From assembly GCA_018389105.1 (NCBI GenBank), contig JACATO010000066.1:1-64000 (forward strand): a stretch of DNA of 64,000 bases, read 5' to 3'. This stretch comes from Nautilus pompilius. Lineage: Eukaryota; Mollusca; Cephalopoda; Nautilida; Nautilidae. Positions 1-41,650 of the stretch are shown piece after piece. The notes under the pieces are model-generated. The model was not told the origin of the DNA, made no database searches, and saw nothing but the letters and a program-made list of their open reading frames with translations. The translations under genes were made by a program, and so were the position numbers. Each line of letters starts with the position of its first letter. Within the stretch, counting starts at the first letter, position 1.

Positions 1-2149
1 TGCCATAACTAAAAAAAACGTGAGTTTGAACAAAACAGACTTTAGGTTTGAAATCAGCGTGCGAAATACTACACAGTAAGCAAGATAGTGTTCCGGTGGC
101 AAAATCATTGTTGTCCAGTGTTATAGATGTGAGCAGTCAATGTTCAGCAATACGCAGAACCAGGCAGATGCTGACAGCCCATGAACAGGATAACTTTTGA
201 AAAATTGTTGTTATTTGTCTCAATGACCTTCCTGATAATTTATCGAAGAGGTGGTGGTAGTCAGAATAACCATTCTCGTATTCCAGCAATTCCAGCTGAT
301 AGATAAATGACGACTTGTATCGGTGATTTCTAACATTAATTACTTTTGATCCACGGTCTTCTCCCTATATACCAATACCAATCCTTCATCAGAATACTTT
401 CTGAACTGTGGTATATATGAAGTCTATTTTTGAACGGTCTTTCATAATCTGAAGAGAATGCATGTCTTTGCATTCTGGTCAAAATTTCTTCCCGTAGAGT
501 CACTTAAATACTTCTAACACCCTGATCTATGAGCTGAATGGCAAAATCTGCACTTAATGAGACTTTCATCAGGACTGCAACTGCCTGCCACAGGATGGAC
601 CAGTGCAATGTCCATGGAAATTACTTTTATTAGAATATTGTGGATGGCATGAAGTTGGTAAAAAATATGTTCAGTTCACCCATCCACTGCATTCGTTTTG
701 TTACACCACAGCACTGATGTTCACATTTGGAAAACATGATTATCTGATACAGTTAACCTCGTATCTTTCCGCAGCAATGACATGTTCCAACATGTGTCTT
801 TACTCTGCTTCTTTATATAACCACCAAAGGAAGCTGGCAATGAGATCCACCTCTAATGTAGCAATGTGTCTTGTAAACAACACGTGTGCAATTGGAAAAG
901 TCTTGCAATAACGAGGCACTAATGTTATAATGGCATTTCTCTTTTCTTCAACCATCTATTTTTATTTTGTCAGCAACAGATGAAACCAGACTCATTTGGT
1001 TTCCTGACAGATGCATGCAAACAAATGTCCGAAAAGTCATTTGAAATCAACTACAAGACCAGCCAGTGTCCATTGACTATGCGAAACAGCTACAGATCCT
1101 GATTACCTCTTGTAATTGTATTTGTGCAACTTATCAGCTTGACTAGTTTAAGTTGGTTTGCTGTTTGTCTACCAAACATCATCTTATAATATCTGCATTA
1201 TCGTTCCCAAGCAAGACAGGAAACTGAACCCTTAAGGGCCCAAAATCTCAACACACCACCATCTATTAAAACCTTCTCCCTGCTGTCCTTTCAATAATTT
1301 TCAATCTGCAATAAAAGAAGTTCACTTGTGCCAAAGTTTTTGCAGATATGGAAATCAAGAAGAACAACATTCATGTTTTTTTTTAACTTGTATCTGATGA
1401 CATTTTGAAGAATAATAGCAAATTAGCAGAGCAAAATTTTTCCCTGAAATAAAATTGCAACTTGACTTTTTATTTTCTTTTAAATGACCAGCTCTACCAA
1501 CTGGAAATGTTATCAATTTATCATTTTTTCCTGATATTTACCTTATTTTATATTTTTAAAAAGTGGATATTTTAGAACTGCTACATAATAGTAACAAATT
1601 TTGTGAATACCAACATAAATTTGAAGAAACAAAGAGTCACATATTCATGAAAACCTAAACAAAGCAGATGTTTGTAAATTCTGGCATTTATGTGTATTAA
1701 ATTAAATTAGAAAGTTTAATGTTAAACAATATTAATGAACAACGGAAAATGTTAACAGTGAAAGGGCCACCATAAATTTGTTCCAAGTAGAAGAGTTTAA
1801 CTAAAGTGAAAGGGAAACAGAAACATTTCGGCAATAAACAGAATATTATCTTCAGCTTAATAAGACTTAGGTGGAGTGACACAGGGTTCTCTCTTCTTTC
1901 CTGCCTTGTTTTCAGTTTCCATTTATGATGTTAATATTAAGAACTTTTCAGATGGTATTAAAATTTAATCTAAAGCAAATTCCAAATAAAAATCTTTAGA
2001 TGAATCTGAATAATCTAATTGATTAGTCAGTAAAAGTAAAAAGAAGAGAGTTTTGTACTAACAGCGAGTGGGGGGATACAACTAAGCACCAATAATTCAC
2101 CAAACTTTCTTAGGATAGACTACGTTTGTTCTTTTTTTATTAAATTTCT

Positions 2150-3500
2150 CAATGGAAGCAAAAGGTGATATCTCCTCGCGAGCTGTTACTTCGATATATC
2201 GGCCGAGTCGCCTCTCGTAATGCATCGATCAATCGATGGTGAACGAACCGCAATCGCCCCCCACCGATTATAAAGATGAACACTGGCGGTGACAGAGCCG
2301 GTGAAGCTGCTGGTACTGGCAGGGAAAACGAGGAGGGTATTGCGGCGAACACGCTGCCATGTCTCCCGCCGATATATTTCTAAGGCTGGGTGGAGTCAGC
2401 TTTGCCCTGTTTCTGTGCCGGTATAACATCAATACCGATCAGACGGTAGCACACCTGCAGGATGAAGCTGACCTGCTCCTACTCCGCTGTATCCCAGAGC
2501 TCCACCACCGGGTCTTTCCGTGGAAGTGAAGGGAGACAACTGCATCCGAGTAAACAGCCGGTAAACCCCGCACGGCTACTGCCGCTGGCTGGTTCCCAAT
2601 TCCGGAATAGGGATCCGTTAAGATTTTGCTATCAGGGCAGCGAATAATGATGGCGTTACCTAGCAACGGGATTCCGCCATTTAGGCGGCTTTTCGGTAAG
2701 TCTCTGGCCAGCACCGCGTCTCTAAGAGTCTTAGAAATACTCCGACCAGGAACCATTCGGCGTCGTCTGCCTCTTGTCACGATTATTAATTATAATTTCA
2801 GGGAATTCGATGAACGGATAGCAGCTCCTCCCGGACCGTACTTCTGCCAGATTAGGTAGACAGAGACAGTCGTCGGGTGTGGCGTGTGTTTGGTGTAAAG
2901 CACCGGCCATCAATTCCTGTGTGGAACCGACCGCCCGCCGCCGCCTGGACCTTGTTTCTGCGACACTCAGCCCAGGGGAGGAGAGGAACCCGCCCTCCTG
3001 GTCCCGTGGGGAGGGAAGAGGTAATGCTGCTGAATTCCGCCTGTCACAATGGTTCACTACACACCCACTCCCCTCAACTGTAGACTGCGATACCATTTAT
3101 TTCTTCAAAGGTAAATCTCGCCACAAATGAGTTTTGTATGTCACCTGCCAGGTATTCTTCCGCCTTGACTACGGTCTTGCATGGTGCCGTTGGACGATGA
3201 ATGAAGCACAAGGGGCAAGAATGAGCTGTGACCGTGTTAACGGTAAGTACGGATTAAACCACAGGACAAGACAGGTAAAGTGAGAATTCTCTGCGACCAT
3301 GAATGGGGATAGGAACTCGACTGTGGAGACAATATTACCTGATGTAACAATCTTGCTAGAGTTATTCCCCCTGGGTCGCATACATGTCTCTCTTGTAGTT
3401 TCTCCTTATTTTGTGCTAAATATCACCAGTGTTCCAGACGATTCTGGGGATGGCGGTTGGTACATTTTCAAAGCTGAGACGGCAAAGAAAGGAATATAAA
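2150..3500. promoter_or_regulatory. CpG-rich promoter-like core, copy 1
   Basis: This is a GC- and CpG-rich island in otherwise AT-rich DNA. It contains good splice-donor strings on the plus strand, such as GTAAGT after 2693 and at about 3242, and others on the minus strand. Its inverted counterpart at 51250-52600 lies immediately upstream of the SLC16-like coding exons. A bidirectional promoter with several alternative first exons would explain the features. No core promoter element was identified with certainty, and promoter function is an inference. Confidence 0.5.
2359..2529 (+). CDS. Candidate 56-codon ORF in the CpG core, copy 1 (function unknown)
   Basis: The reading frame starts at an ATG (MSPADIFLRL...) and encodes 56 residues with a Leu-rich segment (DEADLLLLRCIPEL) and a PWK end. 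The same frame is kept in all three CpG-rich copies. The two differences I found between this copy and copy 3 are both silent (GTC/GTT and ATC/ATA). A possible donor (GTGAAG) overlaps the last codon, so it could be a first coding exon instead of a whole gene. I do not recognise the protein. It could also be a chance ORF in GC-rich DNA. Confidence 0.35.
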   Translation: MSPADIFLRLGGVSFALFLCRYNINTDQTVAHLQDEADLLLLRCIPELHHRVFPWK

Positions 3501-3598
3501 GTAGGTTGTGGGGCACAGCAGGTGTATTAATCTGTATTTTATTGGACACTTTATTATATTGTCTTCTCTCATTGTCATCTCTCTTGTAATATTCTCAC

Positions 3599-3722
3599 CA
3601 AATCTGTCATGGAAAATAACAGACAGGAAGGATTTCAAAGGAGTCAGCTGACGTCGTGGCAGAGCTGATTCTACACCGACTCTCTGGGGGCGCAGCTGTC
3701 TCTTCAGCGGAGGATCTGACAT
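3599..3722 (-). CDS. Exon-like ORF starting MSDPPLKRQL, copy 1
   Basis: The ATG is followed by 41 codons rich in Arg, Pro and Leu (…LRPQRVG…, …LTPLKSFL…) and ends at a good donor (G|GTGAGA) in phase 1. A possible acceptor further along (…CCGTCTCAG) would continue the frame for about 19 more residues. GC content is higher than in the flanks. The product is unrecognised. The upstream frame is broken in this copy but open in copies 2 and 3. Confidence 0.3.
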
Positions 3723-6700
3723 TTTGCAAAGGTTGTTTTTTTTTATAAGCTCTTTTTATTAAAACAAACTGGGAAGGTGCTGTAAGTGCAGTCTTCTGAA
3801 GTGTCAGACAATACCTGCCTGTAGGGGAGGATCAAGGAGACAGGCTTTCATGTTTCATTTCAATTACTCGCATTCAGTGGAGTGCAGAAACACATCGTGG
3901 ATACATGGCGCAGTGCCGGTGGAAACTGCACAAAGAGCTGGTCTCCTGTGTGAAGGGTCTGCACTATATAGAAGGGTATCTAAAAAAAGGGGCACCGTAT
4001 TCATCATTATTTACATAAATATTTGCATGTACATACAAAGACATTGTTTACTGAAGGTAAATATAAGTACAGAGATCTTGAAAGTAGCATTACCAATGTC
4101 ACAGCATCTCTTGCCAATGTCTATTTGTGCAGCCAGCTAGCATAACATTGAGGATGGAGAAGACTTGACTTTGAGAAAATTGGTATGGAAACTGGTTTTC
4201 TAGTTCCATGGTTATTTGTTGACCAGTCTGCAGACCCTGGTATTGGCATTGTTATTCTATTTTGCTGATATTGTTTGTTTTCGAAATAATAATTTTTTTA
4301 GCAGTTATATTTTTTGTTGTTTGTTTCTCTCCCAAGTGCTTTGAAGGTAAGGGTTTGATGTTATTAAAATTTCATAACAAATGAGTTGTGACCATAGCCA
4401 ACCATATTTTCATCTTCTATGGACTTGATGGAATATTGTGGATTAGCATGGTAGTATTGTGATATTGGCTAGTGTGGTTTGGTTCCTGGCGAATTCTGTC
4501 TGTGTTTTGCATCTAGGTGTTAAAGAAGAAGGTCTTTCTGGCTTTTAATTGTAAGTAGAAGATTTTAAGTAGGTTCCTTCATCGTTGAAGAAGAAATAGC
4601 TGAATGAATGTTAGGGGTTTTATGTCTTAATTAGTGCAAACACAATCACTTTTCTCCCACTGGGAGGCATGTGTAAATACCCTATAAAGTCTCTATCACA
4701 CATCATCATCCATTAAGGACTCTGTGAACTGCAAAGGGTTTCAGTGGTTGGACAAGGGATTGTTGAAGAAAGGAGAAGGACAGTTTGACAAATTTCACTG
4801 TTATCTGTAGTGAGACACCATTAGTTCCTCCATAAGTTACTTACAGACAGGTCTGATCCCAGGTTCATTATGAGCTTGCTTTTCTTCGAAAGCAATAATT
4901 TGTAAAAAGTTGTTTAGGATGACTGAGGATAAAACTGTATTAAACTGAAACAATGTTGCCGTTTTCCTTTGTCACTGAACTCAGTTTTGTGCAATGTTCA
5001 GAAACATTGTTCATTGTCATCGTCCTGCAGACAGATTAAGAGTTCACAAGCAGAAAACCAGCCACAAACACATCAGGATAAAGAGACCAGTTGTTTCATT
5101 TGATAAGTTTTAAAAAACTTTATTTTCTTTAACAGTTCAAATAAAATTTACATAAATTATTGAACTTCTGTCACAATAGAAACAACAACAAAGACATAGA
5201 TGCTTCAAAAGTGAAAAAGAAATGAAAATTATTCTGTAGTGTAAAGTGAAACGTGAAAAATAACTGATAATGCTAAGCTGCTGTTTTGAATTTGTTAGTG
5301 AGGTTGTAGGAATCTACTTAAATTTGCCTTCATTATATTAACAAATACATAAAGTCAGAATATGTTTAGAAAAGAAACCCTTTCCTTAGTTTTATTTAAT
5401 TAATGCCTTTCTGTTAACACAATGGCCTTTCCTCTAAACTTCACTGCATGGCTAACATTGTGTAGAAATATCTTCCAGTTGACAAACCTGTCTGGCTTCC
5501 TTCCCAAGGAAGATGTAGCAAATGTCTCTGATTACTTTAAATCCAAAACACTTGGGCTCTATCATGCATTTATGAGCACAGGATATTGGAGCCCCAATGT
5601 TGATAACCTTAAAACCTCCATCCATCATCCAGACATCGTGAATTCGACAAAACGGGCACATCACCATTCATGATGGTGGCCTGTGGCGCTGAAAAACCTG
5701 AAAATAAATCATTCTGATCAATTAATATGGTAAAAATGCAGATGAAATGGAAACCTAAAGCTGCTACTTGAGATTTGTCAAAACCTCTAAAGGTAGAATA
5801 ATTGTAGTATTTAAACAGGTAAACATGATATGGTCGTTCTTGACTTGTCATACCTGCAGATAATTAATATAATGGCAGGTTGATGTTTCACTTTTATTTA
5901 CAAATTCGTCAGTTTGTTGTCCACTATATCAATTATAATTGTACTTGGTCACAGTATTTACAACCAATTATTGGCAGACTATTCCAATTAATCAGAACAC
6001 AACTAAATAGGTATAATACTGTTCATTGCTGTTTTTCTTGATGATCAAAATTCCTTCAGATATCTGATGTATCTTGATTCTCAATCAGAAAGTAAAATGG
6101 CTACCACTTCCTTCAAATGATGATGATACAGTATTAAAGCCTTAATTAAGGAACCTAATTCAATAAGTTGTAATAACAAAAACGAATTAAGATGACAAAG
6201 AAACATGCTACAACTATTAAATTAAATAAATAATTAATAAAGACCATTGAAAAAGATAAACCACCTATTTGTGTTTTAGTGATTTTAGATATAATGAGCA
6301 GACAGTCATCCTAGAACCTGGCAGGTGCTGGCAGCCCATGAGAAGGCTTGTTTTTCTTTTAATCCTTATGATTTGTCTCAAAGACCATCCTGATAATTTT
6401 ATCCAAGAGGCTGAGTGAGGTAAGCACAATAATCTGTCATTTGTGAGCCATTCCTGCAATCTCAGCTGATAGATAAATGATGAGTTGCCTGAGAGATGAC
6501 TTTCATCAATTACTTTGACCTATGCTGTCTTTTCTCTGCACACCAATTCTTTAGCAGAGTAGATGGATGTCCTAATTTCCAGGCCTAGACTTTAATATAG
6601 ATGGAATCTATTATTGGAGGATCATTTATAATCTGTATGAAGAAAATGCTTATTTTACTGCAGTATGGTCCAAAATTGTTTCCATAAGATCAGTTGAATA

Positions 6701-6758
6701 TCTCTAACACCCGGATCTATGGACTGAAGAGGAAAATCAGCCACTATCAAGACTTTCA

Positions 6759-6908
6759 TCAGAACTTGAAATATCTGGCTTTGGATGGGCCGGTGCAGTG
6801 TCCATTAAAATTGATTTTATTGGTGGATTGTGATGGCATGAAGTTGGTAAAGATGTTCACTTCTCCCATGCACCAGGTAGATTTTGTTACAACAGAGCAA
6901 ACATGGAA
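6759..6908 (-). other. Possible hidden exon in the E-type block (arm 1)
   Basis: This is the minus-strand equivalent of 38367-38516. It encodes 49 residues with three Cys, ending HCTGPSKARYFKF before a TGA. The stop is also present at the equivalent place in 1-920 and 8203-9115, although those copies carry an upstream frameshift. The ending recalls the last strand of a galactose-binding lectin fold, but the match is too short to assign. Confidence 0.2.
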
Positions 6909-7070
6909 CTAAGCCTAGAGACAGCTGATAAAAGGGCTGGCTTGGTAACTTGAAGAATTTACAAGCTAAATTTTTTTATATTCAACTAAGGTTGATATAA
7001 ATTTATGTTTTAAGTATTGTCAAAACTGTGAAGACATCTAAAAGAGGCCAATATGCAAAATATCAGAAAG

Positions 7071-7104
7071 TCTGTCTGTCTGTCTGTGTGTGTGTGTGTG
7101 TGTA
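7071..7104. repeat. TCTG/TG microsatellite
   Basis: TCTG units run into a TG run. The inverted arm at about 38162-38207 holds the complementary CA/GA-rich tract with a different length and composition, which shows independent slippage since duplication. Confidence 0.9.
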
Positions 7105-7802
7105 TTTTCACTATGCACAAAATAGGCTTGCAAGCAATACCTGAGTACACAGTTAACTACTAATGAAGTTACCTTCTGGACTTTTCAGTTTATTTTATTA
7201 TTTCTGCAACCTGACACCCAAAGTGTAATGAGTTCAGAAGGTCTAAGGGTTTTAAAAAGTCGTCTGACAAGTTATAGCTGTTTTCTTGTCCCATATATGA
7301 TATTACAGACAAACCAGGGTAGATGATGTTAATATTACTCTTGGTGGCCAAGATGTTGCTGGTGTCCATTTCTCTCTATTTCTATGGCCATGGAGAAAGA
7401 AATGCTGTCAGCAGAGACAGTAAAGTTGACAGCTGGGAAGGGGGAGGGGTAGGTAAAATATCTTTATTTGCATACAGCCATTGTAGTTACTTAAGGAAAT
7501 AATATTTTGTCTTAAGTGTGAATTAAATGTATTCATTATTTCATGGGTTTGTTTTTTTTTTTGGATATTTCCTCAATTTGTAGAATGTCATCTATAAATA
7601 CTCACTGTCTGCATAATAATCAACTTCTTGAAAACCATTGTTAGTCTTGGTATAAACAGACAAAACCAAGAGTTTCACATTGTTCGTAAACACCAGCAGG
7701 AACTCTCAGGTGCTCCATTTATCACCATTACTGTAAGGCTTCAGTGGGAACTGAATTATTCGCTAATTGTCGTCTAAGTACTTGACAATTTTCATAAGTC
7801 GA

Positions 7803-8202
7803 GTTTGATATGAAGTGGTGGAAGGTAGACATTCTGATGGTCTACCAATGGCATATGATGCACATTGTACCTGCCAACTATAGGTTCCTGTCGCATAGGC
7901 CAGTCTTTTTGTGTGTAATGGTTGGCATCATCACAGTTGTTTCAAAGACACAAAAAACACGTTTTGTGTACCCTAGCTGCAATCTGAGGAGGAGAAAAAT
8001 AACTTTGAGATCACCACAAATTTTCCATTTATGATCCGAATAACTTGTCACTTTCAAAAGAAGTTCCATTGACTCATATATGTCTTTCAAACCAACTGCA
8101 TGAGCTATAGGAACTGAAGGTTTTTGGTTACCATGATGTAACAGCACAGCTTTAAGGCTTAGTTTGCTATAGTCTGTGAATAACTTCCATTCATCAGTCA
8201 CA
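7803..8202 (-). pseudogene. Fragment of a multicopy, probably transposon-borne ORF
   Basis: The minus-strand frame from 8201 reads WKLFTDYSKLSLKAVLLHHG, then a segment with PIAHAVGLK and KICGDLKV, and then LQLGYTK. After a frameshift it continues as LPPLHIKLDL near 7805-7843. I recall this order from a protein family found in many copies in arthropod, hydra and mollusc genomes and thought to be mobile-element derived. The fragment stops at the boundary of tandem copy 2, lies just upstream of pseudogene A exon 3 and lacks the Cys pair I expect after GYTK. Confidence 0.5.
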
Positions 8203-10433
8203 TGCCATAACTAAAAAAAACGTGAGTTTGAACAAAACAGACTTTAGGTTTGAAATCAGCGTGCGAAATACTACACAGTAAGCAAGATAGTGTTCCGGTG
8301 GCAAAATCATTGTTTCCAGTGTTATAGATGTGAGCAGTCAATGTTCAGCAATACGCAGAACCAGGCAGATGCTGACAGCCCATGAACAGGATAACTTTTG
8401 AAAAATTGTTGTTATTTGTCTCAATGACCTTCCTGATAATTTATCGAAGAGGTGGTGGTAGTCAGAATAACCATTCTCGTATTCCAGCAATTCCAGCTGA
8501 TAGATAAATGACGACTTGTATCGGTGATTTCTAACATTAATTACTTTTGATCCACGGTCTTCTCCCTATATACCAATCCTTCATCAGAATACTTTCTGAA
8601 CTGTGGTATATATGAAGTCTATTTTTGAACGGTCTTTCATAATCTGAAGAGAATGCATGTCTTTGCATTCTGGTCAAAATTTCTTCCCGTAGAGTCACTT
8701 AAATACTTCTAACACCCTGATCTATGAGCTGAATGGCAAAATCTGCACTTAATGAGACTTTCATCAGGACTGCAACTGCCTGCCACAGGATGGACCAGTG
8801 CAATGTCCATGGAAATTACTTTTATTAGAATATTGTGGATGGCATGAAGTTGGTAAAAAATATGTTCAGTTCACCCATCCACTGCATTCGTTTTGTTACA
8901 CCACAGCACTGATGTTCACATTTGGAAAACATGATTATCTGATACAGTTAACCTCGTATCTTTCCGCAGCAATGACATGTTCCAACATGTGTCTTTACTC
9001 TGCTTCTTTATATAACCACCAAAGGAAGCTGGCAATGAGATCCACCTCTAATGTAGCAATGTGTCTTGTAAACAACACGTGTGCAATTGGAAAAGTCTTG
9101 CAATAACGAGGCACTAATGTTATAATGGCATTTCTCTTTTCTTCAACCATCTATTTTTATTTTGTCAGCAACAGATGAAACCAGACTCATTTGGTTTCCT
9201 GACAGATGCATGCAAACAAATGTCCGAAAAGTCATTTGAAATCAATCAACAAGAGACCAGCCAGTGTCCATTGACTATGCGAAACAGCTACAGATCCTGA
9301 TTACCTCTTGTAATTGTATTTGTGCAACTTATCAGCTTGACTAGTTTAAGTTGGTTTGCTGTTTGTCTACCAAACATCATCTTATAATATCTGCATTATC
9401 GTTCCCTCTGCCATATATTTGGTATCATCTAAAACTTTTATAATATTGGTAAAGACTCCAGCAGCATCATCATCATTTATATATGCATCTAAAAAGCAAG
9501 ACAGGAAACTGAACCCTTAAGGGCCCAAAATCTCAACACACCACCATCTATTAAAACCTTCTCCCTGCTGTCCTTTCAATAATTTTCAATCTGCAATAAA
9601 AGAAGTTCACTTGTGCCAAAGTTTTTGCAGATATGGAAATCAAGAAGAACAACATTCATGTTTTTTTTTAACTTGTATCTGATGACATTTTGAAGAATAA
9701 TAGCAAATTAGCAGAGCAAAATTTTTCCATGAAATAAAATTGCAACTTGACTTTTTATTTTCTTTTAAATGACCAGCTCTACCAACTGGAAATGTTATCA
9801 ATTTATCATTTTTTCCTGATATTTACCTTATTTTATATTTTTAAAAAGTGGATATTTTAGAACTGCTACATAATAGTAACAAATTTTGTGAATACCAACA
9901 TAAATTTGAAGAAACAAAGAGTCACATATTCATGAAAACCTAAACAAAGCAGATGTTTGTAAATTCTGGCATTTATGTGTATTAAATTAAATTAGAAAGT
10001 TTAATGTTAAACAATATTAATGAACAACGGAAAATGTTAACAGTGAAAGGGCCACCATAAATTTGTTCCAAGTAGAAGAGTTTAATTTGAGTGAAAGGGA
10101 AACAGAAACATTTGGCAATAAACAGAATATTATCTTCAGCTTAATAAGACTTAGGTGGAGTGACACAGGGTTCTCTCTTCTTTCCTGCCTTGTTTTCAGT
10201 TTCCATTTATGATGTTAATATTAAGAACTTTTCAGATGGTATTAAAATTTAATCTAAAGCAAATTCCAAATAAAAATCTTTAGATGAATCTGAATAATCT
10301 AATTGATTAGTCAGTAAAAGTAAAAAGAAGAGAGTTTTGTACTAACAGCGAGTGGGGGGATACAACTAAGCACCAATAATTCACCAAACTTTCTTAGGAT
10401 AGACTACGTTTGTTCTTTTTTTATTAAATTTCT

Positions 10434-11780
10434 CAATGGAAGCAAAAGGTGATATCTCCTCGCGAGCTGTTACTTCGATATATCGGCCGAGTCGCCTCTC
10501 GTAATGCATCGATCAATCGATGGTGAACGAACCGCAATCGCCCCCCACCGATTATAAAGATGAACACTGGCGGTGACAGAGCCGGTGAAGCTGCTGGTAC
10601 TGGCAGGGAAAACGAGGAGGGTATTGCGGCGAACACGCTGCCATGTCTCCCGCCGATATATTTCTAAGGCTGGGTGGAGTCAGCTTTGCCCTGTTTCTGT
10701 GCCGGTATAACATCAATACCGATCAGACGGTAGCACACCTGCAGGATGAAGCTGACCTGCTCCTACTCCGCTGTATCCCAGAGCTCCACCACCGGGTCTT
10801 TCCGTGGAAGTGAAGGGAGACAACTGCATCCGAGTAAACAGCCGGTAAACCCCGCACGGCTACTGCCGCTGGCTGGTTCCCAATTCCGGAATAGGGATCC
10901 GTTAAGATTTTGCTATCAGGGCAGCGAATAATGATGGCGTTACCTAGCAACGGGATTCCGCCATTTAGGCGGCTTTTCGGTAAGTCTCTGGCCAGCACCG
11001 CGTCTCTAAGAGTCTTAGAAATACTCCGACCAGGAACCATTCGGCGTCGTCTGCCTCTTGTCACGATTATTAATTATAATTTCAGGGAATTCGATGAACG
11101 GATAGCAGCTCCCTCCCGGACCGTACTTCTGCCAGATTAGGTAGACAGAGACAGTCGTCGGGTGTGGCGTGTGTTTGGTGTAAAGCACCGGCCATCAATT
11201 CCTGTGTGGAACCGACCGCCGCCGCCGCCTGGACTTTTTTCTGCGACACTCAGCCCAGGGGAGAGGAACCCGCCCTCCTGGTCCTGTGGGGAGGGAAGAG
11301 GTAATGCTGCTGAATTCCGCCTGTCACAATGGTTCACTACACACCCACTCCCCTCAACTGTAGACTGCGATACCATTTATTTCTTCAAAGGTAAATCTCG
11401 CCACAAATGAGTTTTGTATGTCACCTGCCAGGTATTCTTCCGCCTTGACTACGGTCTTGCATGGTGCCGTTGGACGATGAATGAAGCACAAGGGGCAAGA
11501 ATGAGCTGTGACCGTGTTAACGGTAAGTACGGATTAAACCACAGGACAAGACAGGTAAAGTGAGAATTCTCTGCGACCATGAATGGGGATAGGAACTCGA
11601 CTGTGGAGACAATATTACCTGATGTAACAATCTTGCTAGAGTTATTCCCCCTGGGTCGCATACATGTCTCTCTTGTAGTTTCTCCTTATTTTGTGCTAAA
11701 TATCACCAGTGTTCCAGACGATTCTGGGGATGGCGGTTGGTACATTTTCAAAGCTGAGACGGCAAAGAAAGGAATATAAA
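10434..11780. promoter_or_regulatory. CpG-rich promoter-like core, copy 2
   Basis: This is a near-identical copy of 2150-3500, with small length changes in the GCC-rich part near 11217-11275. Unlike copy 3 it has no transporter exon beside it: the equivalent of 52611-54082 is replaced by about 240 bp. If it is an active promoter, it has lost its original target gene. Confidence 0.5.
10643..10813 (+). CDS. Candidate 56-codon ORF in the CpG core, copy 2
   Basis: This is the same frame and length as 2359-2529, starting MSPADIFLRL and ending FPWK-stop, within the second CpG core. It is intact. The coding interpretation rests only on conservation between copies. Confidence 0.33.
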   Translation: MSPADIFLRLGGVSFALFLCRYNINTDQTVAHLQDEADLLLLRCIPELHHRVFPWK

Positions 11781-11878
11781 GTAGGTTGTGGGGCACAGCA
11801 GGTGTATTAATCTGTATTTTATTGGACACTTTATTATATTGTCTTCTCTCATTGTCATCTCTCTTGTAATATTCTCAC

Positions 11879-12002
11879 CAAATCTGTCATGGAAAATAAC
11901 AGACAGGAAGGATTTCAAAGGAGTCAGCTGACGTCGTGGCAGAGCTGATTCTACACCGACTCTCTGGGGGCGCAGCTGTCTCTTCAGCGGAGGATCTGAC
12001 AT
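11879..12002 (-). CDS. Exon-like ORF starting MSDPPLKRQL, copy 2
   Basis: This is the copy-2 version of 3599-3722, with the same phase-1 GTGAGA donor. The frame is also open upstream to an ATG at 12116, which would add 38 residues. The function is unknown, and the evidence is the ATG, the donor and preservation in three copies. Confidence 0.3.
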
Positions 12003-13674
12003 TTTGCAAAGGTTGTTTTTTTTTATAAGCTCCCTTTTTATTAAACAAACTGGGAAGGTGCTGTAAGTGCAGTCTTCTGAAGTGTCAGACAATACCTGCC
12101 TGTAGGGGAGGATCAAGGAGACAGGTTTTCATGTTTCATTTCAATTACTCGCATTCAGTGGAGTGCAGAAACACATCGTGGATACATGGCGCAGTGCCGG
12201 TGGAAACTGCACAAAGAGCTGGTCTCCTGTGTGAAGGGTCTGCACTATATAGAAGGGTATCTAAAAAAAGGGGCACCGTATTCATCATTATTTACATAAA
12301 TATTTGCATGTACATACAAAGACATTGTTTACTGAAGGTAAATATAAGTACAGAGATCTTGAAAGTAGCATTAACAATGTCACAGCATCTCTTGCCAATG
12401 TCTATTTGTGCAGCCAGCTAGCATAACATTGAGGATGGAGAAGACTTGACTTTGAGAAAATTGGTATGGAAACTGGTTTTCTAGTTCCATGGTTATTTGT
12501 TGACCAGTCTGCAGACCCTGGTATTGGCATTGTTATTCTATTTTGCTGATATTGTTTGTTTTCGAAATAATAATTTTTTTAGCAGTTATATTTTTTGTTG
12601 TTTGTTTCTCTCCCAAGTGCTTTGAAGGTAAGGGGTTTGATGTTATTAAAATTTCATAACAAATGAGTTGTGACCACAGCCAACCATATTTTCATCTTCT
12701 ATGGACTTGATGGAATATTGTGGATTAGCATGGTAGTATTGTGATATTGGCTAGTGTGGTTTGGTTCCTGGCGAATTCTGTCTGTGTTTTGCATCTAGGT
12801 GTTAAAGAAGAAGGTCTTTCTGGCTTTTAATTGTAAGTAGAAGATTTTAAGTAGGTTCCTTCATCGTTGAAGAAGAAATAGCTGAATGAATGTTAGGGGT
12901 TTTATGTCTTAATTAGTGCAAACACAATCACTTTTCTCCCACTGGGAGGCATGTGTAAATACCCTATAAAGTCTCTATCACACATCATCATCCATTAAGG
13001 ACTCTGTGAACTGCAAAGGGTTTCAGTGGTTGGACAAGGGATTGTTGAAGAAAGGAGGAGGGGAGTTTGACAAATTTCACTGTTATCTGTAGTGAGACAC
13101 CATTAGTTCCTCCATAAGTTACTTACAGACAGGTCTGATCCCAGGTTCATTATGAGCTTGCTTTTCTTCGAAAGCAATAATTTGTAAAAAGTTGTTTAGG
13201 ATGACTGAGGATAAAACTGTATTAAACTGAAACAATGTTGCCGTTTTCCTTTGTCACTGAACTCAGTTTTGTGCAATGTTCAGAAACATTGTTCATTGTC
13301 ATCGTCCTGCAGACAGATTAAGAGTTCACAAGCAGAAAACCAGCCACAAACACATCAGGATAAAGAGACCAGTTGTTTCATTTGATAAGTTTTAAAAAAC
13401 TTTTTTTCTTTTTTAACAGTTCAAATAAAATTTACATAAATTATTGAACTTCTGTCACAATAGAAACAACAACAAAGACATAGATGCTTCAAAAGTGAAA
13501 AAGAAATGAAAATTATTCTGTAGTGTAAAGTGAAACGTGAAAAATAACTGATAATGCTAAGCTGCTGTTTTGAATTTGTTAGTGAGGTTGTAGGAATCTA
13601 CTTAAATTTGCCTTCATTATATTAACAAATACATAAAGTCAGAATATGTTTAGAAAAGAAACCCTTTCCTTAGT

Positions 13675-13680
13675 TTTATT
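13675..13680 (-). terminator. Likely polyadenylation signal of gene B
   Basis: AATAAA on the minus strand, 56 bp past the stop codon. The same signal occurs at the matching place after gene D. Confidence 0.45.
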
Positions 13681-13735
13681 TAATTAATGCCTTTCTGTTA
13701 ACACAATGGCCTTTCCTCTAAACTTCACTGCATGG

Positions 13736-13980
13736 CTAACATTGTGTAGAAATATCTTCCAGTTGACAAACCTGTCTGGCTTCCTTCCCAAGGAAGATGT
13801 AGCAAATGTCTCTGATTACTTTAAATCCAAAACACTTGGGCTCTATCATGCATTTATGAGCACAGGATATTGGAGCCCCAATGTTGATAACCTTAAACTC
13901 TCCATCCATCATCCAGACATCGTGAATTCGACAAACGGGCACATCACCATTCATGATGGTGGCCTGTGGCGCTGAAAAAC
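13736..13980 (-). CDS. Gene B exon 4, PAN/apple domain
   Basis: The exon starts after a CCAG acceptor in phase 1 and ends at TAG. Seven Cys are spaced as in a PAN/apple fold (…PVC…PISCAHKC…EPKC…RDIC…RQVC…TQC). PAN domains are small disulphide-rich modules that bind proteins or sugars. This copy is in frame; the near-identical copy at 5452-5697 is not. Confidence 0.88.
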
Positions 13981-16900
13981 CTGGAAATAAATTCATTCTG
14001 ATCAATTATATGGTAAAAATGGCAGATGAGAATGGAAACCTAAAGCTGCTGATAGGCTTTTTATTCGTGTATGTACATAATAAATTTGCTGATTTTGGTT
14101 TTGTTTTTTGTATAAAAGTTATTTGATACATAGGAAATGAAATGTTTTAAAGGTTAATTATTATAAAAACAGATTGTAATGTATTGATAAGTTCATCATT
14201 GAATTCTCCCTATCCTTTGGTATTTTAGATTAAGGTTGAGTGTTTTCATTCTTGAAAGTCAAGAAAACTGATTAACAAAAATGAAAGGAAATGAATTGAT
14301 GCTGGCCTTTCACCTGAGCCACATCACAGGTATATTCATTCAGAAGAGTCACCAGCATAAAATCAGAGATAATAGATTAAAAGTTAATTTGTATGTAATT
14401 ACAATGAATGATGGGTAAGTTTCCTTTTAACCAGGATTCTTTGTATAACAAAATTAATTTTTTTTACATATACAAAAGAGAATTTTTGGGTTTAATTTTA
14501 AACATATATTTCCATCATTTATACCATGTGGTTGGTAGTTTCCTTAAAACAAAAGGCTTTTGAAAAGTTGGCATGGAATGGAGCTATTTACAGTAAATAG
14601 ATAAAAGTTTGGATGATAGTTTGCTGCCATTTGTGTTTCTTTTATTCATGTTTCATAGTATTGTAGGACTGTTTCCACAAAGAGACAAGCTTTCTTCCTA
14701 CCATTAACAGCCTCATTTACTATGCTATGAAACTTAGACATTGAGTGATAATCTGAAAGTTACCCAAAGAGTGATATCCAGACTGTGGATGAGAAGGTCA
14801 TTAACAGTGACCTCAGAGTGGTGAGCTACAGTCCACAGTCACACAGGAGGACTGTTGTCTTGGTTACCCAGCCAGCAGGAATTGTTTTGTGGATGCTATC
14901 AGTTTGAAAACAGCAATTCAATTAGGAAACCAGTTTTTATCCAGAAACTACATGGAAACTGATGCATAATATAATGCAAATAAAGAACTTGTTAACTTCA
15001 TATGTAGTTTGACTATGATGTTATAGACAAACCAGGATATTTGTGATTTTAAGATTGCATTTGATGGAAAACATCATTGGTGTCCATTTCTTTCTCTGGA
15101 TTTCATTGGCCCTGGAGAAAGAAATGCTGTCTGCAGAGACAGTGAACAGTGACAGCTTGGGAAGAGGGCATCTGTTTACATGGATGAACAGATTTGTAGG
15201 TCATTGAGAACAGATTAATGACAACTGTTTGTTACTGTTGGGATTTTCTCTATATCCTTTGACACTGCTGATCCTTTAAGTTTTGTGTTCTGTTTCTTCT
15301 TTGGTCCGTAAAATATCTCTCTTTGCATACAGTGATTGTAGTTACATAAGGAAATAATATTTTTTGTCAAAGCCAGCAAAAAGGTATTCATTTCTTCTTG
15401 GGTTTTGTTTGGATATTTCCTCAATTTGTAGAATATCATCTATAGATACTCACTGTCTGCATAATATGCCACTTCCTGGAACCCATTGTAATTCTTGGTA
15501 TAAATAGACAAAACCAAGAGTTTCACATTGTTTGTAATTACAGGCTTCAAGTTGAAGATGTTCCATTTATCATCATTACTGTAAGGCTTCAGTTGGAACT
15601 GAATTAGTAAAGGAATATAATTTTAAAATATTAAACAGGGTTAACGAAGTATACTTACATTATTACACTTTTATGGTAACATTGATTAGTACTACAGTTT
15701 AAGACAGAAGTTTCCCTGCTCAATCACTGAATTTTACACAAGTAGCCAAAATTATCCCACCTCTTTGCTTATTAACAGGACACCAAGATTTGTGTTACAG
15801 AGTGAAAGACAGTTAACCACTGCTGTTGGTAATGATGGGGTCTCTGTACTATACGTCTTTAATGTGGACATTTCTTGTTTAGTTATACAGAAGGAAAGTT
15901 CAGTAAATGCCCACTTTGCAGGAATATTTTGAGTATAGAACATCTGGATAGTTAACAAATTAATCAGTTATTTGGAATGACACAATAACTTGTACCAACA
16001 GTGGGAGCTAATCAGGGGTAATTATTTAATAAATGTATTAAAATAATTATGTCCAGATAAATGTTGTGGTGCCTGGTTTGTGGATTCTGTAATAAGGAAA
16101 TGTTCCCACAGCACAGTATTTGGAAAGCCTACCTCTCCAATGTAAACAGGGCTCAGTCTTAGTTTTATGCCAAGGGAATATAAATATTATATCAAATGTA
16201 GGATCCCTGGATCAATTCTGGAATGTTCTATTAAAGCTGAACAGCACATAGGTATTGATATTATCAACAATAAAGTCAACACTAACTTACTGTCAGATGC
16301 AAGAATAGGAACTATATTTGGGATGGACATGATGGTGTTGATGGAGTGGACCCTGGGAACTACAGATGTGATGATAATTCTGATTAAAAAAGAAGATTGG
16401 GGAGACTGAGTTCATGCTTAGGTGAGTGGTGGGTTCTCTATTTTCAGCACATTGCATTGTGGGAATTCTTTCCAAACTACTTTAAGGCTTCAGTCACTCA
16501 TCTATTTTTATGTATTATTTTAAATAATGAAATACAATTCGTATAAAGAAAGAATAAAACCAATCTGCCCTTTCTCTTTTTTCTGGGAAGATAGGTACCA
16601 GTGGCATAGACATTTAATGTTAATCACTATCACACAATTATGAAGTAACAGGACAGTGAGCTCTTCAGCAGACCTGAGTTGGTCCCTGTGGTCATCTGTT
16701 CTGTTAGCAGTTGACCTTCTGAAGAGTTTCTGGAACAACTGAATTTAGTCTGTGTGGGCTCCCCACCAGAACACTATGTCATAATCAGTTCTAATCTTTC
16801 AGCAAATTTCTGCTTCAATGTCATGGTTATGTCTAAGTGGCTTGGAATAATGATAAATTGGGGAAATATTTTATAATATGTTTTACCTGTTGCTTTGATC

Positions 16901-17613
16901 CATCACTGAATGAAATTTCAATGTCTTTGTTTTGACCTCCAGAATATCGTTGAGCCATTTTTGCTTCTATCATCAGGTAGCTGGCATTAAAACTGATGTT
17001 AATCCAGGAACCTACTGCTTCACCTTGTGTTGTCCAAAAGTATCTCGTCAACATTCCATCTATGGCTACGCTGCATCTGTATTTGATAGAATATTCTGAT
17101 GATGCTCCTACACACCTGCCTCCATTCTTGGACTGAGCCACATTGAGCAAATCTATAAAAATATGTTTGGTAATCACTGGTTATGACAAAGAAAACAGAT
17201 GACAGATTCTGAAATTGGTGCTGAGAATAGCTATAGAATCCAATCTGTTTGGAGTCTCTACTTCTGTATAGCTTTTCTGTTACTGTGACTGGTTTGAAAG
17301 ATTCCAATAGACTGGCTGGTTGGGAATGAGAGGATTATTCATTTGACCTGCAGTATATTATTGGGAGGAATTTTAACGATACTTGGATATTAGTTTCTTA
17401 AAATTCTTTTTTTCATTAATAGTTACTTTCTCTTATTTTTTTCTACTTTTCCTCTGTCAGACAAAGAAATTGTATTTTGTGTATCTCATTTATATTATAA
17501 ATAATTCCATGGAAACACATTGTGATAGTAAATAATACTACTATTACATTTAAATGCAAACAAACTTTATCTAAATTAAAAATAACAAATTTTCCATTAT
17601 TATTATTATTATA

Positions 17614-17671
<58 letters not shown>

Positions 17672-18590
17672 TTTGGTTTATTTAGTTGGCAGTAAGATGA
17701 ATTCAGCTGGTCTGGAATGATGGGCACTTGTCTGGAGAGAAAGTCTTCTTCCCCTCAGCTGGCTGCTGAAAGCTCCAGTGTAGAAACTTTATGGTATTCC
17801 CTGACACCCTTAAGAGCTGATAACTTGTTTGTACAGGTCATCATCTGGATCTGTCATATGCAATAGCAAGCACCTGGATCATTAAGGAAAAAAAATCTTT
17901 AAACCTTAATTTGGTATTAGAAAAGCAGAGCTTGTCAATATTACTTGAAAACTATGAAAAACATGAATGATATAAAATTGTCTGCTATATTCTAACATTA
18001 TTCTGACCAGTTATTTTTATAGGATTTAAAATATCTCTCTGCAGCTGCTAGTTTTCCAGAAAAGGTGAAAAGTCATTCTACTAAAATTATTAACCAAAGA
18101 TGCAGCTCCATTTGCTCAAATTAGATAGGAACAGTTGAAGGAAATAAGGAAATAAATATCTACATTTTGTACAAGAGACCAGTGAAGTCATTTGTTGAAA
18201 AATTCCTATTGTGGGGAATATTTATCAACGATAATAATTCTCAATAAAGTTTAGATTCTCCTGGGGAAGGTTGGTTGGCAGAGTGGTTTGCCATGTAATT
18301 AAACCAACAAAGGCAGATTGAAAGTTGTCTGCTCTTCTGCTTTGTCACCAATAAGAGTTCAGTACCTGCTACATGCTAGTCAGTATCAGAATTTATTAGG
18401 AATCTTCGTATGAATGTTGTTTTAAATGCCATGGTTCAGGTGTCTTGACATAAAGAAAAAGAAGATACATGTAGACAGGTAGGGCTTGTCAATTTCCTGT
18501 AGGTCTGTTCTTACCTGCAAATGTTGAAGAAAACAAAAATCCAAAACAGGAAAAACAAGTCCAGATTGTAGCATGAACTTTCTTCAGCAT
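13736..18590 (-). CDS. Gene B: secreted galactose-binding-like + PAN/apple domain protein, 4 exons
   Basis: The exons are 18515-18590, 16887-17152, 15454-15598 and 13736-13980. All introns are GT-AG and phases agree (1, 0, 1), giving 732 nt and 243 aa. Order: hydrophobic signal peptide (residues 1-25, MLKK...); a galactose-binding-like domain (about 26-163) with the marks CVGASSEYS, AIDG, GEAVGSWINISF, QNKDIEISFSDGSKQQ and, in exon 3, FQLKPYSNDDKWNIFNLKPV; then a PAN/apple domain (about 163-243) with seven Cys. The family role is probably secreted carbohydrate or protein recognition; the ligand is unknown. The 3' end lies within tandem copy 2. An AATAAA lies 56 bp past the stop. B is the minus-strand paralogue of gene D. 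Confidence 0.85.
15454..15598 (-). CDS. Gene B exon 3, galactose-binding-like domain, last part
   Basis: The 145-nt exon starts after AATTCAG and ends before GTGAGT. It encodes FQLKPYSNDDKWNIFNLKPV and then VKLLVLSIYTKNYNGFQEVA, the usual ending of this domain type. The same length is found in genes A, D and E, but A and E have a TGA here. Confidence 0.88.
16887..17152 (-). CDS. Gene B exon 2, galactose-binding-like domain, first part
   Basis: The exon runs from a TATAG acceptor to ACAG|GTAAAAC. It encodes LLNVAQSKNGGRCVGASSEY and the conserved WT/A..GEAVGSWI and DIEISFSDGS stretches. It is 266 nt against 275 nt in gene D, a difference of three whole codons. Confidence 0.88.
17597..17671. 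repeat. ATT microsatellite in intron 1 of gene B
   Basis: This is a run of about 25 ATT units with one interruption. It creates a spurious poly-isoleucine reading frame on the minus strand. Confidence 0.95.
18267..18372 (+). repeat. Possible tRNA-derived SINE remnant
   Basis: The stretch TTGGCAGAGTGGTTTGCC fits the Pol III A-box consensus. A weak B-box-like GAGTTCAGTACC lies about 75 bp on. No poly-A tail or target duplication was seen, so this is tentative. Confidence 0.25.
18515..18590 (-). CDS. Gene B exon 1, signal peptide
   Basis: The ATG is followed by two Lys and a hydrophobic core rich in Phe, Cys and Leu, ending in SSTFA before a GTAAG donor in phase 1. The exon is 76 nt, exactly the length of the matching gene D exon, which supports the start. 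It is too short to be seen as an ORF on its own. Confidence 0.85.
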
Positions 18591-21707: not shown

Positions 21708-22074
21708 ACTTTAACGTAAAACACAAAGCACAGCACCACAGAGAACCGCTACACGCAGCGAGACGTGAAGCCGAGATGCGGGATGCTTCTACAGGGGACA
21801 ACAGCGCCACAGATGCTGCTGTCACTGAGCCATTCAGCGTCCGGGATACAAAACACCATGCTCTGATTGGCCGCCTCCCAACCATCAGCCAATAACGTGC
21901 CGAGTACGATCTCACCTGGGCAGAAGCAGCTGCAGTTGTACTCCGTTTTCCATGCGCTAGCGCCTCGCTTTTATACAAGCCCGCTACGCCACTTTGTTTT
22001 TTAGTACAAGCCACTTTGTTACTTAGTTTTGTTATAATTTCTATTTTGATTTAATTTCTTTTATAATGTACACA

Positions 22075-29135: not shown

Positions 29136-31387
29136 CAGTGGCCTTTGCTCTAAAATTCACTGTATATGTAACATTGTGCAGAAATGTCCTCCAGTCCACA
29201 CACCTGTCTGGCTTCCTTCTCATGAAAGATTTAGCAGATGCCTCTGATTACTTTAAACTCAATACACCTGCTCTCTCTTGGCAGGAAGTACTGTTCCAGT
29301 TCTACTTCAGCTGGAAGACATTTACCTATTTGCATGCACCTTGTGGTTATATGTGACAGTGGTGTTTTGTATAAAGTCAGCGCAAAATGTATTATTAATT
29401 TATGGTCTCTCTCTTATTTGCTCACTTTGTAGAACATCGACCATAATAATTAGTCTGTGTAATACTACATTTCATGGAAACCATCGTTAAGTTTGCTATA
29501 AACTGAAAGAACTGAGATTCACAGTGTTTGTTAAAACACCCTGCAACATGAAGCTGCTCCATTTATCATCTCTTACTGTTAGTATTCAGCTAAAGAAAAA
29601 ATTAGAAAAAAAATTTTAAAATATTAAAGGATAATGAAATATGGTTACATTGTTTTATTTCTATGGAATCTACTAAAGTTTAAGATGGATGTCCGCCTTT
29701 GCAGCCTCACCGATTTTTACAGAAACAGACTTAGTCAGTCCATCACTTTGTTTAATGACAAAATGCTGAGAGTTCTGTTATAGTGTGAAAGGTAATTAAG
29801 ACAATTAACCAATACTGTCGATATTCATAGGTTTATATTGAATGGAAATGCTCCCACAGCACAATACTATAGAGTCTACCTTCAAAGTAATCAGGGACCA
29901 GTCTTAGCTTACTGTTATTTATATATTATAGCAACTGTAGGATCTATGGATCAATTCAAGCGGGTTCTGTTAAAGCTGAACAGTACATCAATTTTTGCAT
30001 TGTGACACTCAAAGAAACTTTAATCATCAATGACAATAGAAAATCTTTTAACAGCCTTAAAACAGATTAGAATAATTAATATATTTATTGTTTGGCTGAT
30101 AATAAATTGGCTGCCATTTGAATTCAGTGTTGTTTTGATAATTTACCTGCTTATTCTTTTAAAATAAACTTTAGTATGAACAACAGCCCTACATGGAAGT
30201 CGGTGCAATGTTCAGTGATTGAGTGAGGAGTCAGAGCTGTCATTTCCATAAATTGTACGTGATTTTATCTAAAGTTAGATGTATACTGACTTCAGGCTTT
30301 TGGTCATGGACATTTTATAAAAAAAATTAACAAACAAATAAATAACAAAATAGAAACAAGATCATGAAGACTCACCATAGAGGGAGAATAAACACTTATT
30401 TAATTTGCACTTCAACTTTACCAATGAATACTTCATTATCATCCTTAATGTTACCAACCATAATCTTAATCTTAATAAAGTAAACTAACTTTCTGATAGA
30501 GGCAGCAATAAGAGCCATATTTGGGATATAGATGCTGGTGTTGATGGTTGCAGATTCTTGGTAACACAAATGTGATGATAATTCTGATTATAAAAGTAAA
30601 CAGAGTACCTGTTCATCCTTGGTTAAGTGGAGGGGAGCTCAACTTTCAGCACATTGCATTGTGGGAATTCTTTCCAAATCACTAGCTGTGTTTCAGGCTT
30701 CATTCACCCATAAAATTTTATGTATTATTTTAAATGTTAAAATATGATTCAGTTAAAGAGAGAAAAAATCAACAAAGCTGCCCTTTCTTTGTTTCCTAGA
30801 AGTATGGGTGCCAGTGGTTTAGACTGTTAATGTTAAGCACTAACACAATTATGATTATCAGGAGAACCTGCCACAGAAGACCTGAGCTGGTCCCTCAGGA
30901 CATTTGTTCTGACTGCAGTTCACCCCATGGAGAGTTCCCAGGACAACTGAACTCAGTCTTTCTCTTCCTCCTGAAAAAACTCAGGTGAAGTGATTTCTAC
31001 CCCATCAGCAAATTTTTGTTTCAAGTCAGTTCTTCCATCTAAAGGGCTTGGAATGATGTTAAATTACTCTGAATTCTCTTTTTTGACAAGGTGAGAAATA
31101 TTCAAGAAAAATATTTAACATTTTGTTTTTCATCCATCACTGAATGAAGTTCAATATCTTTGTTTTAATCTGTAGAATGTATTCATTGTACCATTCTGGC
31201 TTCTACAACAGGAAGCTGGCATTGAAATTGATGTCAATCCAGGAAGCTACCCCTTCACTATCTGTTGCCCAATCATTTTGATTCAACATTCCATCTATGG
31301 TAAAGCTACAAGTGTGGCTGCTTGAATGTTCTGATGATGCTCCTACACACCTTCTTCCATGCTTTGACTGAGCTACATTGAGCAAAT
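29136..31387 (-). pseudogene. Gene C: decayed member of the galactose-binding-like/PAN family
   Basis: Three family exons are visible. Exon 2 (about 31140-31387) starts LLNVAQSKHGRRCVGASSEH but has a TAG after SFLL and a frameshift. Exon 3 (about 29451-29594) has lost a base near its start and its donor. The PAN exon (about 29136-29275) keeps only the C-terminal half, with a stop in place of the Tyr of ICYIF. The signal-peptide exon is missing: intron 1 is fused to the decayed core at about 31605. Introns 2 and 3 still match those of gene B in order. Confidence 0.8.
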
Positions 31388-31606
31388 CTAGAACAAATGT
31401 GTTTGGTAATTATTATTGGTTATGACAGAAAGAAAGGATGGTATATCTAAAATTGGTGCCAAAAATAGCTAAACAATCCAATCTTTTTGGAGTCTGTAAA
31501 GATGCATAGCTTTTCAGTTGCTTTGACTGGTTTGAAAGGATTTCAATAGACTGGCTCCTTGGGAATGAGTGTAATTCATTTGACCTGAACTATATTATTG
31601 GGTCAG

Positions 31607-32740: not shown

Positions 32741-33229
32741 TTAATGAACAAATGGAGCAGTCAAATGTATTAGACTCAGTACAGAATGTCTCATAAGGAT
32801 ATATGTATATATATAATCATTTTTTCTGTCACCTCTTTCTTTCTGCCCGCCTTCTGCCACCAAGAAGCCATGTCTTCCCATATTCTTCAGGTTGAATTTT
32901 GACAGAGGAGGTCCCAATAAGTTGATAAAGAGAAGAGTTGAAAGATGATCAATTTCAAGTTGTGCATGTTGTGGTGGCATGCATAAATTCATTCCACTGA
33001 AGCTGCTTTCACATTTTGTTGTTGACACTGGAATTGTACTTATAGTCATTAGCAGCTGCTGAAGATGTGCAGAAACTACCTTTCTTTTAGAGTCCTTAAA
33101 TTTTCTGTAGGCTCTGATACATAGCCCACCATTTAAGCCAAACTGTTTTGCCATTTCTTCGATATCATTATTCCCAAAGGTAAAAATTGAATCTTCTAGA
33201 ATATTGTTAATATCTAAATATTTTGACAA
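32741..33229 (-). pseudogene. hAT-type C-terminal dimerisation region (KIAA1586-like fragment)
   Basis: The 162-residue frame contains LLMTISTIPVSTTKCESSFS, GMNLCMPPQHAQLEI, then LSTLLFINLLGPPLSKF. This is the order of the hAT C-terminal dimerisation region as found in KIAA1586-like proteins. No matching N-terminal part lies upstream: the frame meets a LINE fragment at 33225. It is a truncated relic and not a complete gene. Confidence 0.7.
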
Positions 33230-37294: not shown

Positions 37295-37659
37295 CTAATG
37301 TTAACTGTCTTTCACCCTGTAACACACAACACTTGGCATCCTGTTAATAAGCAAAGAGACGGGATAATTTTTGTGTAAAAATCAGTGATTGAACAGGGAA
37401 ACATCTGTCTTAAACTTCGTTAGACTAATCCATGTCACCATAAGGAAGTAATAATGCAATTATACTTCATTAAACCTGTTTAATATTTTAAATTAATTCT
37501 TTAAAATAATTCAGTTCCCACTGAAGCCTTACAGAAATGGCAATAAATGGTGCACCTGAGAGTTCCTGCTGGTGTTTACAAACAATGTGAAACTCTTGGT
37601 TTTGTCTGTTTATACCAAGACTAACAATGGTTTTCAGGAAGTTGATTATTATGCAAACA
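37295..37659 (+). pseudogene. Gene E: partial family member (intron 2 end plus exon 3)
   Basis: Sequence from about 37295 matches intron 2 of genes B and D. Exon 3 (37515-37659, 145 nt) keeps its TTCAG acceptor and a GTGAGT donor, but it has TGA at codon 15, shared with gene A. Exons 1 and 2 are absent, replaced on the left by the hAT relic. Since A and E share the stop, the nonsense codon predates the copying of this unit. Confidence 0.75.
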
Positions 37660-39505: not shown

Positions 39506-39759
39506 AAGTAGATTTGACTTTAGATAAAATTAAGCTAATTTCAACTGAACATTAGGGATGTCAAAAGAGTAAATTGATGAACTTCCAAACATAATCAATT
39601 TTCATCACTAATACATAGCAAGTATACCATTTGCATTTGCACCTCTTTGTTCACTGGTATACATACACCTGACGGAACGTTTATTGATCCTAAAAATAGA
39701 TATTATTCTACAAAGCCAACACCTTCAGTCATTGTGATGTTTATATGCATGTTTCATTA

Positions 39760-41574: not shown

Positions 41575-41650
41575 ATGCTGAAGAAATTTTGTGCTGCAAT
41601 CTGGACTTGTTTTTGCTGTTTTGGATTTTTGTTTTCTTCATCCTCTGCAG
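41575..41650 (+). CDS. Gene D exon 1, signal peptide
   Basis: MLKK is followed by a hydrophobic stretch rich in Cys and Phe ending SSSSA, then CAG|GTAAGT in phase 1. Length (76 nt) and sequence match gene B exon 1. Confidence 0.87.

Follow-up and report, generated by a model that had tools for sequence, protein, structure and literature searches.

Does the start of a Nautilus pompilius contig carry working genes of a secreted protein family, and if so, what could have shaped them? The window analysed here, 64,000 nucleotides at positions 1 to 64,000 of contig JACATO010000066.1 (assembly GCA_018389105.1; contig C66, 532 kb), holds two predicted genes on opposite strands, designated A and B, each of which splits a small protein over four short exons. 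An initial annotation, made from the letters of the window alone, had read these proteins as a signal peptide followed by a galactose-binding-like domain and a PAN domain, and had proposed that they belong to a locally amplified, recognition-type family. The genome was searched for relatives (727.6 Mb, 2558 contigs), and two sister genes found on another contig, C624, differ from each other in their exons far more than in their introns, with an excess of amino acid changes. From these sequences, we consider that the family probably consists of secreted recognition proteins engaged in an evolutionary conflict, made of a beta-sandwich and a PAN module and diversified at the loops. The exons of A and B are the following.

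18515..18590, minus strand: gene A exon 1, codons 1-25 and one further base, with the start codon and a segment that resembles a signal peptide (translation, splice sites, hydropathy)
16887..17152, minus strand: gene A exon 2, DUF7402/discoidin-like domain, first part (Pfam on the spliced protein)
15454..15598, minus strand: gene A exon 3, DUF7402/discoidin-like domain, second part
13736..13980, minus strand: gene A exon 4, which encodes the PAN-like domain and has the stop codon (profile-profile match, no Pfam PAN match)
41575..41650, plus strand: gene B exon 1, with the start codon and a segment that resembles a signal peptide (hydropathy)
43875..44149, plus strand: gene B exon 2, DUF7402/discoidin-like domain, first part (Pfam on the spliced protein and exon-level match in the genome search)
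45592..45736, plus strand: gene B exon 3, DUF7402/discoidin-like domain, second part
46946..47208, plus strand: gene B exon 4, which encodes the PAN-like domain and has the stop codon (profile-profile match)

Gene A (minus strand, 13736-18590) adds up to 76+266+145+245 = 732 nt and 243 aa, and gene B (plus strand, 41575-47208) to 76+275+145+263 = 759 nt and 252 aa. GT-AG borders were found at all six introns, three per gene, with phases 1, 0, 1 in each gene, so that the two in-phase, four-exon models and their lengths are as initially annotated. The two genes had also been said to differ in length by whole codons. This holds inside the coding sequence, and the difference at the C-terminus is due to an earlier stop in A. 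The N-terminus of both proteins is hydrophobic and signal-like, and no strongly hydrophobic 19-mer follows downstream, as judged by hydropathy rather than by a signal-peptide predictor; the signal peptide of the initial annotation is thus retained as a putative one. In gene B, the third intron contains a 17-base minisatellite of about 7 copies (window 45800-45922).

The mature regions of A and B are approximately 69-71% identical (66/88 residues for exon 2, 33/48 for exon 3 and 55/80 for exon 4, in sum 154/216), and when the signal is included, 68 residues differ among 243 aligned. The two genes face each other inside an old inverted duplication, seen for instance at 13452-14676/47485-46262 and 18323-18922/41852-41237. 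Their non-coding surroundings differ by 18% around exon 2 and 25% around exon 4, the exons themselves by 15% and 19%. Because these surroundings are still 75-82% alike, the open frames of A and B are by themselves weak proof that the genes are functional. In the mature proteins, dN was 0.165 and dS 0.362 (dN/dS 0.46, N<S with p=0.0002), which indicates net purifying selection on both genes; on this basis, frames open by chance were rejected. The predicted genes A and B are thus rather likely to be functional and to belong to a small family of secreted-type proteins.

Relatives were found in only a few places. With protein B as the query, the genome search matched 17 exons, of which 12 belong to the window, 3 to C624 and 2 to contig C914. 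Copy 2 of the C624 cluster as the query matched 13 (8 of them on C624, the other 5 in the window), and the Pfam DUF7402 profile matched 3 exons, 2 on C624 and 1 in B. In the C624 cluster, two copies lie in tandem at a distance of about 23 kb; both have exons 2, 3 and 4, and both are preceded by a broken exon-2 piece. The set of exons and their phases are those of A and B, and exon 2 matched that of A with an E value of 7.3e-23 and 51% identity. A candidate signal exon lies about 0.9 kb upstream and is identical in both copies, whereas the mature exons differ. No relative was detected in a further 200 kb of contig C66 outside the window. Among the best-scoring search candidates, on which these counts rest, four full or nearly full genes were found and no large expansion, so the predicted family is small; since the window cluster is located at a contig end, further copies may exist past it. 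The local amplification initially proposed therefore applies to local copies and relics, and not to a large array.

The two C624 copies were compared inside and outside of the exons. Over the sampled introns and flanks, 44 of 3566 compared sites were different (1.2%), versus 62 of 694 in the exons (8.9%), with 23/269 in exon 2, 10/159 in exon 3 and 29/266 in exon 4. The six 60-nt exon flanks contain 7 substitutions in total, and at the exon-2 locus, the densest 269-nt window outside of the exon has 10 changes, compared with 23 in the exon. Divergence is therefore confined by the borders of all three exons. That exons have changed about seven-fold faster than introns excludes a neutral relic for this pair.

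Changes were then counted codon by codon, in frame, exon 3 being included only up to a frame shift. The count was 5.2 synonymous differences over 143.7 sites (dS 0.037) and 52.8 nonsynonymous differences over 504.3 sites (dN 0.113), a ratio of 3.06. The excess of nonsynonymous change was significant relative to synonymous change (p=0.0043) and to the introns (p=3e-24), and in a bootstrap over codons dN-dS was zero or negative in 0.05% of cases. The C624 pair carries a signature of diversifying selection, and the residues concerned may belong to exposed loops. Exon-restricted divergence with dN above dS strengthens the recognition type proposed in the initial annotation.

Which protein modules does this selection act upon? 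The profile search that had been suggested as a check was run, and the galactose-binding-like domain was recovered. With DUF7402 (PF24135, cut-off 27 bits), the score was 27.2 for A, barely over the cut-off, 41.4 for B, and 49.7 for C624 copy 2 spliced without its candidate signal exon. With F5_F8_type_C (PF00754, cut-off 28.2), the same three sequences scored 26.2, below the cut-off, 28.9 and 28.7. By its profile, domain 1 is a member of the F5/8C-like superfamily, in the DUF7402 branch. The DUF7402 family itself has no assigned function. Here, it makes up the only large module of a small secreted-type protein, which ends in a PAN-like tail. A single protein compared with PDB sequences gave a chance match only. 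When a profile of domain 1 was used, the best solved structures were 4zz5 and 2rva, modules of a bacterial enzyme (glucanase/chitosanase) aligned via the DG motif, with E values of 0.18-0.19 that are not significant by sequence; we take these modules to be CBM32-type discoidin domains. The NCBIfam model NF047619 (NADase-type glycan-binding discoidin), which belongs to the NCBI bacterial and archaeal annotation set, aligned with residues 44-150 of B at 29.4 bits, under its cut-off of 38.

The PAN domain of the initial annotation stood in part. Exon 4 of A and B had no Pfam PAN match at E<=10, and the PAN profile had no match when compared with PDB. Relative to the PAN/apple families (PF00024, PF14295), exon 4 has the cysteine core, yet remains under the Pfam cut-offs: the core C-x3-C-x5-C-x2-F and the fourth core cysteine are kept in 6/6 aligned family members. 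In a profile-profile comparison using hhalign, the exon-4 profile was aligned with 7 PAN_1 domains of the same genome, the distinct ones from 8 loci out of the 109 genome PAN_1 matches listed, and gave a score of 34.0 with a probability of 88.7%, above all shuffled controls: 100 column shuffles peaked at 17.4, and 100 shuffles that left the cysteines in place peaked at 25.2. With A and B alone, the result was 32.3 and 86.2%. In addition, an exon akin to exon 4 (34% identity; 15.7 bits with PAN_1, for which the cut-off is 21.4) was found on C914, where it begins about 0.65 kb past a kringle exon (64.9 bits), in the same phase. Given the profile-profile match, the cysteine core and this kringle-adjacent relative, the most fitting interpretation of exon 4 is a PAN module that has diverged. 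AlphaFold2 on exon 4, run with two sequences only, gave a mean pLDDT of 39.8, too low to inform on the fold. The C914 locus (L041, C914:450367-453606, reverse strand) has the kringle exon and then the PAN-like exon at 592-852 and 1507-1758, and a second PAN-like exon is present at C914:447.0k, in what looks like a kringle-PAN gene. The adjacent locus (L050, C914:453600-457600) contains a frame that resembles histone H3 by eye, on the reverse strand from 1471.

The position of the variable residues was then examined in both gene pairs. In domain 1, A and B differ at 34 of 132 comparable columns and the C624 pair at 22; 13 columns vary in both pairs, for 5.7 expected (p=0.0003), and none of 131 rotations gave an overlap as high. 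The stretches variable in both pairs are located on either side of the AIDG/AVDG motif and past the QR motif. In F-type lectins, as described in excerpts of PMC5712786, the sugar is surrounded by the apex of CDR1 (26-27), the cation motif (~36-40), CDR2 (45-46) and CDR4 (79-86). Mapped by hand, with the DG motif as the reference point, the three variable stretches coincide with CDR1, CDR2 and CDR4 or lie a few residues away. The cation motif h2DGx reads AIDGM in A, AIDGE in B and AVDGK in C624 copy 2, with h2DG kept and an x other than the N, D or S of F-type lectins; C624 copy 1 has DGN. The match between variable stretches and F-type-lectin binding loops is a lead rather than structural proof.

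The window also contains broken relatives of A and B, as the initial annotation had pointed out: stops, frame changes or both were found in each of the three.

5452..5697, minus strand: relic exon 4 with a frame change, matching exon 4 of A at 98.8% identity
7606..7750, minus strand: relic exon 3 with an in-frame stop, standing with the relic exon 4 at 5697-5452
31127..31387, minus strand: relic exon 2 of copy C, with a stop and frame changes
29453..29591, minus strand: relic exon 3 of copy C (copy C, 31387-29150, has stops and frame changes)
29150..29276, minus strand: relic exon 4 of copy C, 3' part only
37515..37659, plus strand: copy D, a relic exon 3 alone, with an in-frame stop common to the relic at 7750-7606
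1..14050, no strand: tandem duplication, 1-5765 versus 8203-14050, about 99% identical, carrying A exon 4 and its relic

Within this cluster, B and relic C differ by only 3-4% in a part of intron 2, where A is 20% apart. In exon 2 and its 5' flank, B and relic C differ by approximately 17%, a divergence like that among A, B and relic C. Relic C and gene B (29453-31600, 43661-44815) thus form a mosaic of near-identical and diverged stretches, and gene conversion is visible inside the window cluster. Recent segmental duplication is dense at 1-14050, 37505-39511 and 50212-52580, with a tandem 8.2-8.3-kb repeat about 99% identical, and the same regions hold inverted copies of 2.4 kb at 99% and 2.0 kb at 98%.

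Several observations weigh against diversified recognition loops. On C624, exon 3 of copy 1 carries the frame shift mentioned above, and synonymous change in the exons is mildly over that of the introns (p=0.04). In A and B, dN>dS was not seen. The relics, used as controls, gave a mixed picture: the relic exon 4 has 2/245 changes versus 19/4304 outside, but the relic exon 3 pair has 7/145 versus 17/1848 outside although both members have a stop, with changes clustered at the tract edge, and relic C versus B has 48/260 in exon 2 versus 91/874 outside, within the gene-conversion mosaic. Since these controls are mixed and conversion is visible, the exon excess with dN>dS is demonstrated for a single gene pair, that of C624. 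As to the loops, the overlap of variable columns is weak in the PAN exon (12 for 7.7 expected over 89 columns, p=0.025; 3/88 rotations). At the C624-variable columns, synonymous change between A and B is also high (7.7/10.2 sites), so that alignment across gapped loops, or segment replacement, may account for part of the loop signal. Finally, the fucose motif HX24RXDX4(R/K), as given in excerpts of PMC5712786, was not found in A, B or C624 copy 2. Any sugar binding would therefore not use that site, and A and B were rejected as F-type lectins proper.

Could these patterns arise without selection for novelty? If gene conversion had homogenised the C624 introns while older exon differences were kept, the contrast between exons and introns would not reflect recent positive selection. 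Such conversion is seen as patches in the window cluster, with the near-identical intron 2 part of B and relic C next to a more diverged exon 2 and 5' flank, and the dS of 0.077 in C624 exon 4 is above the intron divergence. However, change halts at all three exon borders on C624 and dN exceeds dS within the exons, and exons kept distinct despite conversion would themselves imply selection for difference; this explanation seems unlikely to us. For A and B, one may also imagine decaying copies that are still open by chance, as relics lie all round and the introns of the two genes are nearly as alike as their exons. The deficit of nonsynonymous changes, the conserved splice sites, phases and cysteines, and the same architecture on C624 make this highly improbable.

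What the proteins would recognise is a separate matter. An innate immune or mucosal lectin, as in the initial annotation, with loops that follow microbial change is a possible role, if a somewhat unlikely one: the secreted type, the sugar-binding-type fold, local duplication and diversifying selection all fit, but the family is small, and sequence alone does not separate immune from reproductive functions. A gamete or seminal recognition protein, whose loops would chase changes of the sperm or egg surface as in oyster sperm bindin, would be consistent with the small family and the exon-restricted divergence, and also with the fold class and the kind of selected sites reported for that protein in excerpts of PMC5712786. 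On the other hand, neither the F-type-lectin motif nor the tandem F-lectin repeats of bindin are found in these proteins, which have one domain and a PAN module, and no acrosomal or egg-coat context was seen around the genes; we hold this role doubtful. The Egg_lysin profile had no match in the genome, but its control had none either, so that absence is not shown. A glandular secretion, such as saliva, mucus glue or a venom-like product, with changing targets or prey, appears quite unlikely. The salivary proteins of leeches include F5/8C and PAN proteins, which the excerpted source nevertheless puts under separate headings (PMC7191736), and the exons of snake venom proteins are described as changing fast (PMC2711939).

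Taken together, a secreted recognition protein in conflict could operate as follows. The signal peptide would direct a soluble protein out of the cell. The discoidin/F5-8C-type beta-sandwich spanning exons 2 and 3 would most likely bind a glycan or another surface ligand via the loops at one of its ends, a proposal modelled on CBM32 domains and F-type lectins. A second contact, probably with a protein or a glycan, would come from the PAN module of exon 4. Duplication and diversifying selection on exposed loops would then alter what is bound, as expected for a molecule in conflict with a changing partner, be it microbes or gametes of the other sex.

The rest of the window contains elements of other kinds. 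An open 567-codon frame at 20007-21710 (minus strand), with DDE_1 (122.7 bits) and HTH_Tnp_Tc5, encodes an apparently recent transposase, which we take to be of the pogo/Tigger type. A hAT-type transposase dimerisation fragment is present at 32741-33253 (minus strand; 22.6 bits, cut-off 21.4), and a large exon of a major facilitator transporter, perhaps of the monocarboxylate type, at 55952-56914 (plus strand; MFS_1, 73.5 bits). No match was obtained in Rfam at gathering thresholds or in PHROGs at E<=0.01. Elsewhere in the genome, 117 matches to the COX1 profile are spread on many contigs (e.g. C1801, C314, C191), many of them with breaks at the shared profile positions 196, 283 and 346; they seem to be mitochondrial insertions multiplied as a repeat family. 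One COX1 fragment, on C112 within a 1.18-Mb contig, stays open when translated with mitochondrial code 5 and has AGA at serine positions, as is likely for an invertebrate.

The kinds of domains described here are known, whereas their DUF7402-PAN combination and its selection signature appear to be new. In the literature searched, which covered few subscription papers, we found no paper on DUF7402 by name and no description of a secreted DUF7402-PAN architecture. We tentatively suggest, as possible rather than probable, an undescribed animal recognition family in which a DUF7402 sugar-binding-type domain is joined to a PAN exon of a kind that a kringle gene also has, and in which loops are rebuilt by strong positive selection while introns remain nearly unchanged, in a lectin arms race between gametes or in self/non-self recognition. 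If true, the arms race would give a first functional handle on DUF7402. The approximately seven-fold excess of exon over intron difference between the C624 sisters, at lectin-like loops, would point to the ligand-contacting residues, and the pattern of loop change predicts a binding partner that changes rapidly. Should this partner be a gamete or a microbe, the family would join the few invertebrate recognition systems in which the evolution of binding loops can be traced.

Among known systems, the closest parallel in mode of evolution would be oyster sperm bindin, as presented in excerpts of PMC5712786. With this protein and with F-type lectins in general, A and B appear to share the jellyroll fold class, [AV][IV]DG at the place of the cation motif and, for the family, positive selection; the variable stretches of A/B and of the C624 pair occur at offsets like those of CDR1, CDR2 and CDR4. 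The architecture differs: oyster bindin is built of tandem F-lectin repeats, whereas A and B have a single predicted domain followed by a PAN module.

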